A stretch of DNA of 64,000 nucleotides from Toxorhynchites rutilus septentrionalis (lineage: Eukaryota > Arthropoda > Insecta > Diptera > Culicidae). The position numbers were made by a program, and so were the translations under genes. Positions within the stretch are counted from its first letter, which is position 1. Each line of letters begins with the position of its first letter. Shown here piece after piece: positions 25,283 through 29,825 of this stretch. Under the pieces are notes generated by a model. It had not been told where the DNA came from, did not search any database, and was given only the letters and a program-made list of their open reading frames with translations. Location: the NCBI RefSeq assembly GCF_029784135.1, contig NC_073746.1, positions 113,520,035 through 113,584,034 of the forward strand, read 5' to 3'.

Positions 25283-26409
25283 CGAGCGCCGCTCGTAAAC
25301 CCACTCAGTTATAATTGAACAGCGACTGGAGCATGTTGTCGCTGTTGTGATGAAGGTCACTTCGTTTATCATGAAAGCGCTGATGAAAGGTGTTACCAAG
25401 AGCCTGTTTGTACACCTTAGGCCAGAAGGGAATCCATCAGGAGGAGAGTGATGCCACGGTTCCGCTTGAAACATCGGAGCAGCCGACACACACACATACA
25501 CGCGCGAAATCCTCGTTGCTATCATCGTTGCTGAAAAATAATCTACCAGTTCCACTGGGAATTGAAAAATACATTAATGCGAAAGAGTTTATTTTAATGT
25601 TTTCTATCCATACAACACTGCAACCAAATACATTTGGTTTTGTGATTTTTCAATCAATCGCAATTGACAGGAAAGCTTCTATTATTTTCCCCCATCAGTA
25701 GATAATTTTCGTATCCAATGTTGGATGCATAACATGAAAAACGGAAAAATTTTCACATCGCCAAAATCATGTAATATTCGAGTAATCATTTGCTTCTTAC
25801 TCATATAATGCTGCGACCAAATACATTTCGTTTTGGATTTTTCAATCAAGTGTGATCAATGTAAGACCACGTCTTTCGGCAATTTATTAGAGGTGCAATG
25901 AATCTTGAGGAATTCCCGCTCTACGCGCACTGGCAAACGATGTTTACTCAACAATTTCTCAAGTGAGAAATGTGTGTTGTGAGAAAGGATTAGCGAACGC
26001 AAAAACGACAAACGGGAGAAAGAGATGTTTGGAGGTTGAAGAAAATTGGCAGAAAACATCTTCATTTTATCTTTCGAATAATGTGATTCATACCACTTCG
26101 TTTTGCCAGAAAGAGATTATTATTGCTCAAAGGAGGAATCGAGTCCTCCGAGGAAATAACCCAGAGTCGCCTATCGATTGCGGCATTCGTACACAAATAA
26201 TTTTATAATGCAGTTTCATCAAAGTGATTTCTTCGATATGGGGAAATATTCACTACATAATGTCATGTGTTTCATATTCTTCATTATCAAATCCAATATC
26301 CATGGCCCCTATCGGTATCGAATTATCATTGACACCACGATTTTCGCTAAATGCTCATTTCAGTTCGGCCTGCAAAAAACTTTTCTGAACTCTTATCCAT
26401 CAAATTTGG

Positions 26410-26425
26410 AGCCCTGAAAAGGGCC
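26410..26425 (-). terminator. histone mRNA 3' stem-loop (H3 copy 1)
   Basis: The minus strand reads GGCCCTTTTCAGGGCT, a six-pair stem with a TTTC loop (final G-T wobble), matching the histone pre-mRNA 3' processing hairpin. It sits about 20 bases past the end of the H3 pseudogene, as in real histone genes. Confidence 0.85.
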
Positions 26426-26446
26426 GTTGATTATATGCTAAGCTAA

Positions 26447-26807
26447 TATAGCACGCTCTCCACGGATACGATGGGCCAGCTGGATGTCCTTGGGCATGAT
26501 GTGACGCGTTTTGCATGGATAGCACACAGATTGGTATCTTCGAATAGGCCTCCTGCAGCGTCATAACCGCGGAACTTTGAAAGCGCAAAACGGTTTTGAA
26601 GTCCTGAGCAATTCCACGAATCAAATGCTGCAAAGGTAGATGGCGCATCAGCAATTCGGTCGACTTCTGATAGCGACGAATTTCACGCAAAGTTCCCGGT
26701 CGATAGCGATGTGGTCACACTCCTCGCGGCTGGTGCACTTATCCGAGCTGCTTTCGTGGTGCCTTACCACCGAAGGACTAACGAGCTGTGTGCTTGGTCC
26801 CACACAA
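26447..26807 (-). pseudogene. histone H3 pseudogene, copy 1
   Basis: Essentially the full H3 coding length is recognisable. The C-terminal two thirds reads REIRRYQKSTELLMRHLPLQ, then HLIRGIAQDFKTVLRFQSSA, then degraded alphaN/C-terminal sequence ending like GERA. The N-terminal tail is visible only with stops: KHTAR, a TAG in place of Lys9, GGKAPRKQL, and further stops before PHRYRPGT. The initiator position reads TTG. Decay at many sites and frameshifts after SSAVM exclude a functional histone. Because a genuine stem-loop follows and promoter-like DNA precedes it, the source was gene-derived DNA, not a poly(A) retrocopy. The neighbouring two copies share its stops. Confidence 0.88.
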
Positions 26808-26963
26808 ACGAGTCCTCACGGTGCGAGAGTAGAGTAAGAAATGAACGAAAGCAAAGGAAGCATCATATTATAAACCATAAAAGTATAAAATGTAAACCCC
26901 ACCCTCTTTATTATATTCGTAGCTTAGCCTGAGAGAGAAACGAATAACATCGAAGTAAGTATA

Positions 26964-27215
26964 CAGTAATTTATTTGAATCCGGACACTTTGCGTTACAT
27001 TTAATATCATACCGCAGCCACAACATTTTATGCATGTTGAATTAATACGATTGATTAGTAACTATCAAGTAACTATCAAGTAGCTATCAGTAACTATATT
27101 AGTAACTATTAATCGCATAAATTCAACATGAAAAAAATGTTATGGCTGTGATATGATATTGAATGTAATGCAAAGTGTCCGGATTAAAAAGCGTCCGGAT
27201 TCAAAAACATTACTG
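26964..27215. mobile_element. palindromic MITE with CAGTAAT ends
   Basis: A 252-bp element flanked by TA. Arms of about 100 bp are near-complementary: GAATCCGGACACTTTGCGTT at the left against AATGCAAAGTGTCCGGATT at the right. The centre contains short TAGTAACTA and CAAGTAACTAT repeats. It is inserted immediately next to histone copy 1. A half-copy lies at 60566-60650. Confidence 0.75.
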
Positions 27216-27805
27216 TAAAAGAGAGTTAACTCGACTGAAAATTTTTCAGTTCGGCCTGCAAAAACGAAATTAATTGGAAGAGTACAGCATAATGCTTAAA
27301 CGTGAGTATGAGCTTCCCCATCTCACATTCCAATAAGATTAATGGGTTTCCAAGAGGGCGCGCTACATACGGATACGAATGATTTCAATAACCTGTTTTC
27401 GAAGCTATTATTAAGCTATTGAAACAATTTTTCAAGTCAATAGATAGCAATCATATAACTCTTGGACACTTTATCTTTTGTATGAAATTTGTATGAAATG
27501 ATCCGAAGCAGAATGAATCACGCTTAAAGAAGGGATGGATTTTTTCTTGGAATTTACTCAGCAAAAATAATCCCCTCGTCCCAACAATTAAAAACAACAA
27601 ACGGCAAACAGTCTCATCAAAGTGATTTCTTTGATATGGGGATATATTCACTACATCATGTCATATATTTCATATTCTTCATTATCAAATCCATATCCAT
27701 GGCACTTATCGGCATCGAATTATCATCGACACTACGATTTTCGCTAAATGCTTCTTCGGTTCGGCCTGCAAAATACTTTTCTGAACTCTTATCCATCAAA
27801 TTTGG

Positions 27806-27821
27806 AACCCTGAAAAGGGCC
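27806..27821 (-). terminator. histone mRNA 3' stem-loop (H3 copy 2)
   Basis: The minus strand reads GGCCCTTTTCAGGGTT; one stem pair is weakened relative to copy 1. The position after the H3 relic is conserved. Confidence 0.8.
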
Positions 27822-27841
27822 GTTGATTTTATGCTAAGCTA

Positions 27842-28201
27842 ATAGCACGCTCTCCTCGGATACGATGGGCCAGCTGGATGTCCTTGGGCATGATGTGACG
27901 TGTTTTGCATGGATAGCACACAGATTGGTATCTTCGAATAGGCCTCCTGCAGCGTCATAACCGCGGAACTTTGAAAGCGCAAATCGGTTTTGAAGTCCTG
28001 AGCAATTCCACGAATCAAATGCTGCAAAGATAGATGGCGGATCAGCAATTCGGTCGACTTCTGATAGCGACGAATTTCACGCAAAGTTCCCGGTCGATAG
28101 CGATGTGGTCACACTCCTCGCGGCTGGTGCACTTATCCGAGCTGCTTTCGTGGTGCCTTACCACCGAAGGACTAACGAGCTGTGTGCTTGGTCCCACACA
28201 A
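27842..28201 (-). pseudogene. histone H3 pseudogene, copy 2
   Basis: This is nearly the same as copy 1, with RYQKSTELLIRHLSLQHLIR and AQDFKTDLRFQSSAVM intact, followed by the same degraded segment. The tail carries the same stop codons (TAG at Lys9, TAA and TGA further on). Some positions are closer to true H3 than copy 1 (FKTDLRF versus FKTVLRF; LLIR versus LLMR). Shared disabling changes show that the copies descend from one already dead gene. Confidence 0.88.
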
Positions 28202-28473
28202 ACGAGTCCTCACGGTGCGAGAGTAGAGTAAGAAATGAACGAAAACAAAGGAAGCATCTTATTATAAGCCATAAAAGTCCAGAATGTAAACCCCACCCTC
28301 TTTATTATATAAGCTTACTGTATACTTACTTCGATGTTATTCGTTTCTCTCTCAGAGTAAGCTACGAATATAATAAGGGTGGGGTTTACATTTTATACTT
28401 TTTTGGTTTATAAAATGACGCTTCCTTTGCTTTCGTTCATTTCTTACTCTACTCTCGCACCGTGAGGACTCGT

Positions 28474-28833
28474 TTGTGTGGGACCAAGCACACAGCTCGT
28501 TAGTCTTTCGGTGGTAAGGCACCACGAAAGCAGCTCGGATAAGTGCACCAGCCGCGAGGAGTGTGACCACATCGCTATCGACCGGGAACTTTGCGTGAAA
28601 TTCGTCGCTATCAGAAGTCGACCGAATTGCTGATCCGCCATCTACCTTTGCAGCATTTGATTCGTGGAATTGCTCAGGACTTCAAAACCGATTTGCGCTT
28701 CCAAAGTTCCGCGGTTATGATGCTGCAGGAGGCCTATTCGAAAATAACAATTTGTGTGCTGTCCATGCAAAACACGTCACATCATGCCCAAGGACATCCA
28801 GCTGGCCCATTGTATCCGAGGAGAGCTTGCTAT
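28474..28833 (+). pseudogene. histone H3 pseudogene, copy 3 (opposite strand)
   Basis: This is the plus-strand partner of copy 2. It reads REIRRYQKSTELLIRHLPLQ, GIAQDFKTDLRFQSSAVM, then MLQEAYSKITICVLSMQNTS, with the same tail stops and the same altered residues (H for K/R at several places). Private changes include ILTAVM-region substitutions and GAGAGCTTGC near the end. It faces copy 2 across a ~46-bp spacer, so transcripts across the junction would fold into a long hairpin. Confidence 0.88.
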
Positions 28834-28853
28834 TAGCTTAGCATAAAATCAAC

Positions 28854-28869
28854 TGCCCTTTTCAGGGCT
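28854..28869 (+). terminator. histone mRNA 3' stem-loop (H3 copy 3)
   Basis: The strand reads TGCCCTTTTCAGGGCT: the loop and inner stem are conserved and the outer base is changed. Confidence 0.78.
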
Positions 28870-29825
28870 CCAAATTTGATGGATAAGAGTTCAGAAAAGT
28901 TTTTTACAGACCAAACTGAAAGGAATATTTTCGTTTGGATGCCATTCAGCATCGAGAAAATTCCGGAAAGATCTAATCGTTGCTGAAAAATAATCTGCCA
29001 GTTCCCTGGGAATTGAAAAATACATTCATGCGAAAGAGTTTATGTTAATGTTTTCTAACCATATAACACAGCGACCAAATATTTTTCAATCAAGTGCTAT
29101 TAATAGGTGGTTATCGAGTTAGTATTAACCACTGGTGGGCTTCGAGTATCGAGGAAAATCTGAAAAGAATTAATTGTTGCTGAAAAATACTCTGCCAGTT
29201 CCCCTGGGAATTGAAAAATACATTGAAGCGAAATAGTTTATTCTAATGTTTTCTATCCATATAACACTGCAATCAAATACATTTGGTTTTGTGATTTTTC
29301 AATCAATCGCAATTAACAGGAATGCTTCTGAAAATTATTCTTCCCCATCAGTAGAAAATTTTCGTATCCAATATTGGATGCATAACATGAAAAACCTTGA
29401 GCCTCCAACGTAACGCTCTCGTTTTTGAAGTCACCCAAATATTTATTTATCCATTCATTCAGGATGGATTTAGATTCAACTTCAAACAAATGATCTCTAA
29501 ATCAACGCTAGTCCTACGTCACCCTTGCGGTTATACCATAGATATAACCCACTTCCTGTTTTTTTGTGAGTACAATTAAAAGAGAGATGAAAAAAGTAAA
29601 AGATGTCTGCTCCCACACATATAAACATTTTTAAGCTTTTGAAACTGATGCTCAATTCACTCTTCAGCACACGAAAAAACAATTTTTCTCCCGAAGATTA
29701 AATGTTTTCTGCCAAAGCTAGTTTGGGTGTAGATATAATACCAGAAACGCAAATGAATTAAGAACACCCCATTTATCAACATGTGCTTCACAAAAATCAT
29801 TGTTCTTTAGAGGAATAAATGTTTT

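Follow-up and report, generated by a model that had tools for sequence, protein, structure and literature searches.

This analysis concerns a 64,000-nt stretch of the genome of the elephant mosquito Toxorhynchites rutilus septentrionalis (contig NC_073746.1, positions 113,520,035 to 113,584,034 of the forward strand; hereafter the window), in which three decayed copies of the histone H3 gene lie inside an element with the features of a non-autonomous Helentron, or Helentron-associated interspersed element (HINE). The adults of this mosquito are non-biting. C1, C2 and C3 denote contigs of this genome, and L-numbers denote the loci that were read. The element and its parts, including the subterminal inverted repeats (subTIRs), are located in the window as follows.

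25021..29558, + strand: complete HINE with three H3 relics, delimited by end matches and T runs
25025..25040, + strand: 5' palindromic subTIR of 16 nt, GACGTAGGACTACGTC, directly after the 5' T run
26410..26425, - strand: stem-loop of relic A, GGCCCTTTTCAGGGCT, with one G.U pair; 24.9 bits with Rfam RF00032 (Histone3)
26450..26807, - strand: coding part of H3 relic A, with lesions; tblastn with H3, best E 4.9e-39
27755..28920: inverted pair of units B and C, with arms 27755-28319 and 28356-28920 (94% complementary) and a 36-nt spacer
27806..27821, - strand: stem-loop of relic B, GGCCCTTTTCAGGGTT, with two G.U pairs; 16.7 bits with Rfam RF00032
27844..28201, - strand: coding part of H3 relic B, with lesions; tblastn with H3, best E 1.1e-38
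28047..28083 (-), 26653-26689 (-) and 28592-28628 (+): 37-nt stretch identical to the functional H3 gene of L033
28474..28831, + strand: coding part of H3 relic C; tblastn with H3, best E 9.1e-34; Pfam Histone, E 4e-15
28854..28869, + strand: stem-loop of relic C, TGCCCTTTTCAGGGCT, with the closing pair lost; 15.8 bits with Rfam RF00032
29509..29520, - strand: 3' subTIR of 12 nt, TAGTCCTACGTC, matching part of the 5' subTIR in reverse complement and ending 38 nt before the 3' end
29530..29548, + strand: 3' hairpin, GTTATACCATAGATATAAC, ending 10 nt before the 3' end

The first tblastn segments of relics A-C scored 110-116 bits, compared with a maximum of 26.6 bits for H3 in 100 mononucleotide-shuffled windows. 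The Pfam Histone match was obtained in one of the three frames of relic C. All three relics carry the stop codon TAG at Lys9 and deletions of 1, 22, 6 and 16 nt. Because these lesions are equivalently placed in A, B and C, they were inherited and did not arise independently. An earlier interpretation of this DNA from its letters alone (the sequence-only reading) had recognized three H3 relics with common disabling stops, and tblastn and the lesion alignment agree with it. That reading had further described an intact histone hairpin after each relic. A hairpin is indeed present three times, but all three are worn, with the G.U pairs, the lost closing pair and Rfam scores below the Histone3 cut-off of 34 bits; an Rfam scan of the whole window gave no match at threshold. 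A test for special conservation of the stem-loop was negative, with 2 variable columns of 16 in the stem-loop and 91 of 527 around it (Fisher p = 1). Within the inverted pair, the longest perfect match between the arms of B and C is 138 nt, at 28031-28168.

The 5' end of the element lies inside a run of five T, and its 3' end reads ...CACTTCCTG at 29558, followed by seven T. Alignments of other genomic copies to the window begin at 25020/25021. When 18 sources (16 loci and two window stretches) were compared, 16 matched at the left end and 11 at the right end. At the script-matched ends, the left T run is 2-10 nt long and the right one 5-7 nt (17 of the 18 sources; L022 has no matched end). 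By eye, the flanks of the copies differ, except that L018 and a second HINE of the window have similar repeats as their targets. A number of copies, L011, L016 and L024 among them, are inserted within other copies of the same element. For L011, this provided a paralogous empty site: the target GTTAC-T5-CAT, unoccupied in other copies, is split by the insertion with only T's in excess. For HINEs, PMC4067079 describes subTIRs of 12-15 bp with offsets of 2-4 nt at the 5' end and 38-60 bp at the 3' end, together with a palindrome 8-35 bp from the 3' end, T-rich insertion and an autonomous Rep/helicase/endonuclease partner with shared ends. The same subTIR spacing, 3' palindrome, T-rich insertion and autonomous partner with shared ends were found for the window element. 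The repeat unit of 26210-26930 that the sequence-only reading had delimited does belong to the repeat, but is only part of it, as the whole mobile unit spans 25021-29558.

The autonomous partner was reached through a genome search with Helitron_like_N, which gave 132 matches among the best 150 of 1,313 first-look candidates that were scored. For three of these loci the downstream stretch was read: that of L058 contains the element's 3' end, that of L059 an exact match of 21 nt to the 5' end on the opposite strand, and that of L060 neither end. Within short stretches around the Rep loci L046-L057, there was no match to the H3-bearing element at E 1e-3. The locus with the 3' end downstream lies at C2:320.57 Mb, and the upstream stretch completed the element. 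Both ends of this autonomous element (C2:320563411-320575900; 12,490 nt) are those of the HINE, with 82% identity to the HINE 3' region over 126 nt, and an inverted pair of the same H3 relics lies close to the 5' end. Its open frame of 1564 aa matches Helitron_like_N (E 3.8e-23), PIF1 (E 6.5e-39) and, at the C-terminus, Exo_endo_phos (E 2e-6). The best protein match of the Rep frame was LOC129767083 of T. rutilus septentrionalis, at 100% identity. Because an autonomous element with the same ends carries the relics, the H3-bearing HINEs seem to derive by deletion from a Helentron with H3 cargo. Another locus, at C3:178.03 Mb, whose ends lie outside the compared stretch, is 99.77% identical to the autonomous element over 3,958 nt, 99.64% over 2,502 nt and 100% over 3,498 nt. 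This near-identity would be an indirect sign, and only an indirect one, of active transposition. At this second locus (L063, C3:178026500-178036499), extra copies of internal pieces lie between the H3 pair and the Rep frame.

The element is abundant. An exact 20-mer of the 5' end, starting with the 5' subTIR, occurs 11,057 times in the genome, and an exact 29-mer of the 3' end, starting with the 3' hairpin, occurs 6,809 times; on C1, 50 of the 57 listed 3' ends (up to 8.9 Mb) pair with a listed 5' end on the same strand within 16 kb (median 1.6 kb). The relic-specific junction of the 22-nt deletion was matched 3,827 times with up to three mismatches. Reversed-pattern controls gave 0 matches in all three cases. 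The junction count excludes true genes, because every one of the 18 H3-start loci that were read differs from the junction at six or more positions. A start-of-H3 pattern matched 70 times in the genome. The sequence-only reading had proposed searching the genome for dispersed copies with the same lesions, and such copies are numerous. A separate search with the window unit (53 matches among the best 40 of 2,081 first-look candidates that were scored) was not taken as an estimate of copy number. For the window's branch, exact matches to a lesion-bearing 42-mer number 81, at 51 places (C1, 22; C2, 15; C3, 12; small contigs, two). All but one of these 51 places lie outside the tested histone arrays (C2:100-103 Mb and C3:230-236 Mb), so the unit is not restricted to the histone cluster.

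A complete H3 frame was present in 14 of the 18 H3-start loci. At L041, the frame is open to the end of the stretch. The others were L025, H3-like with an intron-like break; L037, with a complete frame and no stem-loop; and L038, a relic. The H3 of L037/L044 (C3:278454000-278463900; L044 5866-6381) is an intact frame with 99.6% identity over 516 nt to the gene of L035. It begins near the likely transcription start, is cut just before the stem-loop and adjoins HINE pieces. It is probably a recent retrocopy.

To follow the lesions, 38 long units were compared, taken from the window and from 16 loci. All 38 share the three lesions checked, namely TAG at Lys9 and two frameshifting deletions, so these lesions did not arise independently. 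As exact strings, the 6-nt and 16-nt deletion patterns were found in 37 and 33 of the 38 units, respectively. A further sample comprised 11 loci, nine of which gave units with >380 aligned positions; fragments in L069 and L075, and a second fragment each in L068 and L074, were excluded. Each of the 16 long units in this sample has the four shared deletions (the 22-nt deletion by construction, as the loci were picked by its junction), and the start codon was lost in the 15 units covering it. L045 (C3:89845000-89854900) is a divergent element with a degenerate 5' end, whose relic keeps the ATG and the natural stop. This relic has a large deletion of its own and a ruined stem-loop, and of the shared lesions it carries only the 1-nt deletion. 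The 1-nt deletion is common to L045, the autonomous units and the HINE units; the 16/17-, 6- and 22-nt deletions and the loss of the start codon are common to the autonomous and HINE units, and an extra 5-nt deletion marks the window's branch. The lesions are nested, which points to one capture followed by death and then by spread with continuing decay. The proposal that the gene had died and was then amplified holds in that capture and death came before the spread, as the common lesions indicate, but not all of the lesions predate it.

The units were also duplicated inside the element. Two-unit elements (L018, of 3,118 nt, and L019) contain the inverted pair only; their sequence runs collinearly with window 25021-26916 and then 27609-29558. 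Elements with three units, like that of the window, contain the inverted pair and one direct copy, and L021 contains three direct units in the stretch read. The segment missing from the two-unit L018 includes one further feature of the window element.

26974..27189, no strand assigned: palindrome resembling a miniature inverted-repeat transposable element (MITE)

When units at the same position were compared across loci, their identity was 99.1% for A-A, 99.0% for B-B and 99.6% for C-C, versus 95.1%-97.9% between units within a locus (seven loci with all three units). In this clustering, 33 of the 38 units were grouped, and the five from L021 and L023 were left out. Because units cluster by position and not within the locus, the internal duplications came first and whole elements were copied later. 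Of the 3,827 junctions, the first 100 listed include 36 that form 18 inverted pairs with a spacing of 687-787 nt.

The closest true H3 in coding sequence among the loci read was that of L033, in the array at C3:233.5 Mb. The relic is 75% identical to it over ~400 aligned positions with gaps and ~84%-87% identical over ungapped coding positions. Upstream of the coding part, the 5' untranslated region (UTR) of the L045 relic matches that of L033 over 31 nt at 97% and over 25 nt at 92%. The window copies have no significant flank match to L033 except the stem-loop itself, past which no more than a few bases agree. A downstream AAGAGTT motif, seen only by eye in the alignment, is presumably the histone downstream element. 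The recognizable donor sequence, from the 5'UTR to the stem-loop, would fit either a gene with diverged outer flanks or a retrocopied mRNA. No protein candidate with a frameshifted H3 tail was found in other species, a result of little weight, since relics of this kind seldom receive an annotation.

Taken together, we hold it very probable that window 25021-29558 is a HINE of Toxorhynchites with three decayed H3 units as cargo, which arose by capture, death and Helentron-driven spread. An ancestral Helentron would have taken up one replication-dependent H3 copy (a gene or an mRNA-derived copy) as its rolling-circle replication took in host DNA. The captured H3 would then have lost its frame and been duplicated as an inverted pair inside the element, and one branch would have gained the further direct copy. 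The Helentron Rep-helicase may then have copied autonomous and deletion-derived elements into T-rich sites. The sequence-only reading had likewise held that one H3 copy with its processing signal was captured, died and was copied within a mobile unit, and the 81 42-mers at 51 places with common lesions bear this out. The H3 relic itself is most likely passenger DNA. Some observations weigh against this account or leave parts of it loose. Because insertion occurs in T runs, a target duplication consisting of T's only is indistinguishable from none. The relic stem-loop is of the GGCCC type of other H3 arrays and not of the GGTCC type of L033, which counts against L033 as the exact donor. Finally, because significant flank similarity is confined to the 5'UTR of L045, a retrocopied mRNA is no less possible as the captured source than a gene.

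Other origins of the dispersed relics were weighed against capture by a Helentron. That they are many separate processed pseudogenes, each reverse-transcribed from H3 mRNA, is hardly credible, even though the extent of the donor approximates an H3 mRNA and the genome does contain the intact, probably retrocopied H3 at L037/L044. Separate retrocopies would not have common lesions or fixed places inside a larger repeat with fixed ends; given both, at most one retrocopy, the captured one, is needed. Segmental duplication and decay of the histone cluster without a transposon would fit the position of L010 (C2:101975800-101981300), where an H3-bearing HINE at 101.98 Mb lies between two groups of true H3 genes. 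We regard this origin as extremely improbable in view of the many 42-mer places outside the tested arrays, the common ends of the copies and the occurrence of the same ends around a Rep-helicase-endonuclease frame. The inverted repeats could also be read as short terminal inverted repeats (TIRs) of a MITE or another TIR DNA transposon that captured H3. However, they are asymmetric, one lying beside the 5' T run and the other ending 38 nt before the 3' end, the target shows no duplication other than of T's, and an element with the same ends encodes Rep-PIF1-endonuclease, which makes a TIR transposon highly improbable.

A different question is whether the inverted H3 pair works as a source of hairpin RNA, yielding 21-nt small interfering RNAs (siRNAs) or feeding the PIWI-interacting RNA (piRNA) pathway and thereby lowering H3 mRNA or silencing the element. 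The 138-nt perfect arm match contains the 37 nt identical to functional H3, and the minimum free energy of 27755-28920 is -1038 kcal/mol, a value without a shuffled control and one to be read with the fact that such folding is expected of any long inverted repeat. The autonomous element retains the inverted arrangement, which recurs in the 18 pairs among the first junctions listed, and piRNAs from histone H4 mRNA are described for Aedes in the histone-related part of PMC6411831. Against such a role, the 37-mer, present in 36 of the 38 long units, is missing from all four autonomous-element units, and opposite arms taken from the two autonomous loci agree to only 87.6%. Identity between the autonomous element and L018 is 88.7%-89.6% in the H3 units, 91.5%-96.0% in the upstream parts and 85.5% in the part just downstream, so the units show no sign of constraint. 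Moreover, virtually no siRNA-sized reads on Aedes H4 mRNA are reported in that same part of the Veneno paper (PMC6411831). We therefore consider a working hairpin RNA source unlikely. Somewhat bolder, and quite unlikely in our judgment, is the idea that the inverted pair is a mobile hairpin, carried by autonomous and non-autonomous Helentrons, that makes small RNAs with stretches of at most 37 nt identical to functional H3 mRNA; its many dispersed copies could then tune or disturb the supply of replication-dependent H3, or tie element activity to S phase via the captured histone control sequence.

Elsewhere, the window contains a second element of the same kind.

55773..57097, + strand: second, related HINE with the same ends, 79%-91% identical to the H3-bearing element

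This second HINE has no H3 match, as the tblastn matches of H3 in the window lie only at 26-29 kb. Other repeats were also observed. A Gypsy-like element with long terminal repeats occupies 14705-19599 (-), with a pol frame containing reverse transcriptase, RNase H and integrase and a frame matching Pfam Gypsy (env-type); a further 301-aa frame lies at 19596-20501. Transposase-like fragments lie at 54765-55259 (Transposase_1, E 5.9e-20), at 21422-22111, 32210-32851 and 34935-35771 (helix-turn-helix matches) and at 41546-41968 (no Pfam match). A tandem array of about seven 143-nt units spans 7507-8541.

Within one genome, these sequences put the stages of gene capture in order: true H3 genes, the L045 relic with its start codon, the autonomous carrier, deletion derivatives and thousands of offspring. 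The relic units are about fifty times commoner than H3 starts, which bears on mosquito histone annotation and on the mapping of small RNAs. Whether such relics feed mosquito piRNA/siRNA pathways becomes directly testable.

The sequence-only reading had known of no described mosquito repeat of this kind, a statement that no longer stands. Thomas et al. (2014; PMC4067079), in their account of Culex quinquefasciatus, describe Helentron-Cq-32A with two broken histone fragments in eight copies. The fragments measure 244 bp (84% to the parent) and 87 bp (83%) and are reported there as 'H4 superfamily, smart00428' and H15 (PMC4067079). Culex Rep proteins are 61%-63% identical to the Toxorhynchites Rep, among 120 listed of 317 matches; the Rep proteins of Aedes albopictus and Topomyia are closer, at 84% and 82% identity. 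The model smart00428 is, we assume, that of H3. As far as the published description goes, Helentron-Cq-32A and HINE-Cq-32A resemble the elements reported here in being a mosquito Helentron with Rep/Helicase/Endonuclease and its own HINEs, in the palindromic subTIRs, the 3' stem loop and TT insertion, and in the histone cargo. Set beside Culex by description only, Toxorhynchites differs in its near-complete H3 unit with stem-loop, its inverted pairs and triplets and its 3,827 junctions. The Culex element is also described with an H15 fragment, whereas no linker histone was detected in the one Toxorhynchites autonomous element searched by tblastn with an H1 globular domain (best E 6.1).

Outside mosquitoes, the DINE-1/HINE repeats of Drosophila and mites share the structural plan and the non-autonomous lifestyle, according to the sections of PMC4067079 devoted to them. 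In the same sections, mite Helentrons and HINEs are stated to have no gene fragments, unlike those of Toxorhynchites, and histone cargo in Drosophila DINE-1 is not mentioned (PMC4067079). The titles and abstracts listed, from queries that rarely included the genus name, yielded no report of histone cargo in Toxorhynchites elements, and in PMC6544945, which deals with a family of insect Helitrons, the words histone, mosquito, Aedes and Culex do not occur. A hAT element captured H3 in Pseudocercospora fijiensis and relatives, where H3 reached hundreds of copies, all but the original being inactivated, as summarized by Dhillon et al. (2019; PMC6710886). Judged by that summary, the fungal hAT-H3 (PMC6710886) is alike in the capture and amplification of H3 by a DNA transposon and differs in the hAT class, the fungal host and inactivation by repeat-induced point mutation (RIP) instead of ordinary decay. 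Histone cargo in mosquito Helentrons is thus already known; what sets the Toxorhynchites elements apart is their copy number, an autonomous element that itself carries the inverted pair, and a series of lesions that is clear.

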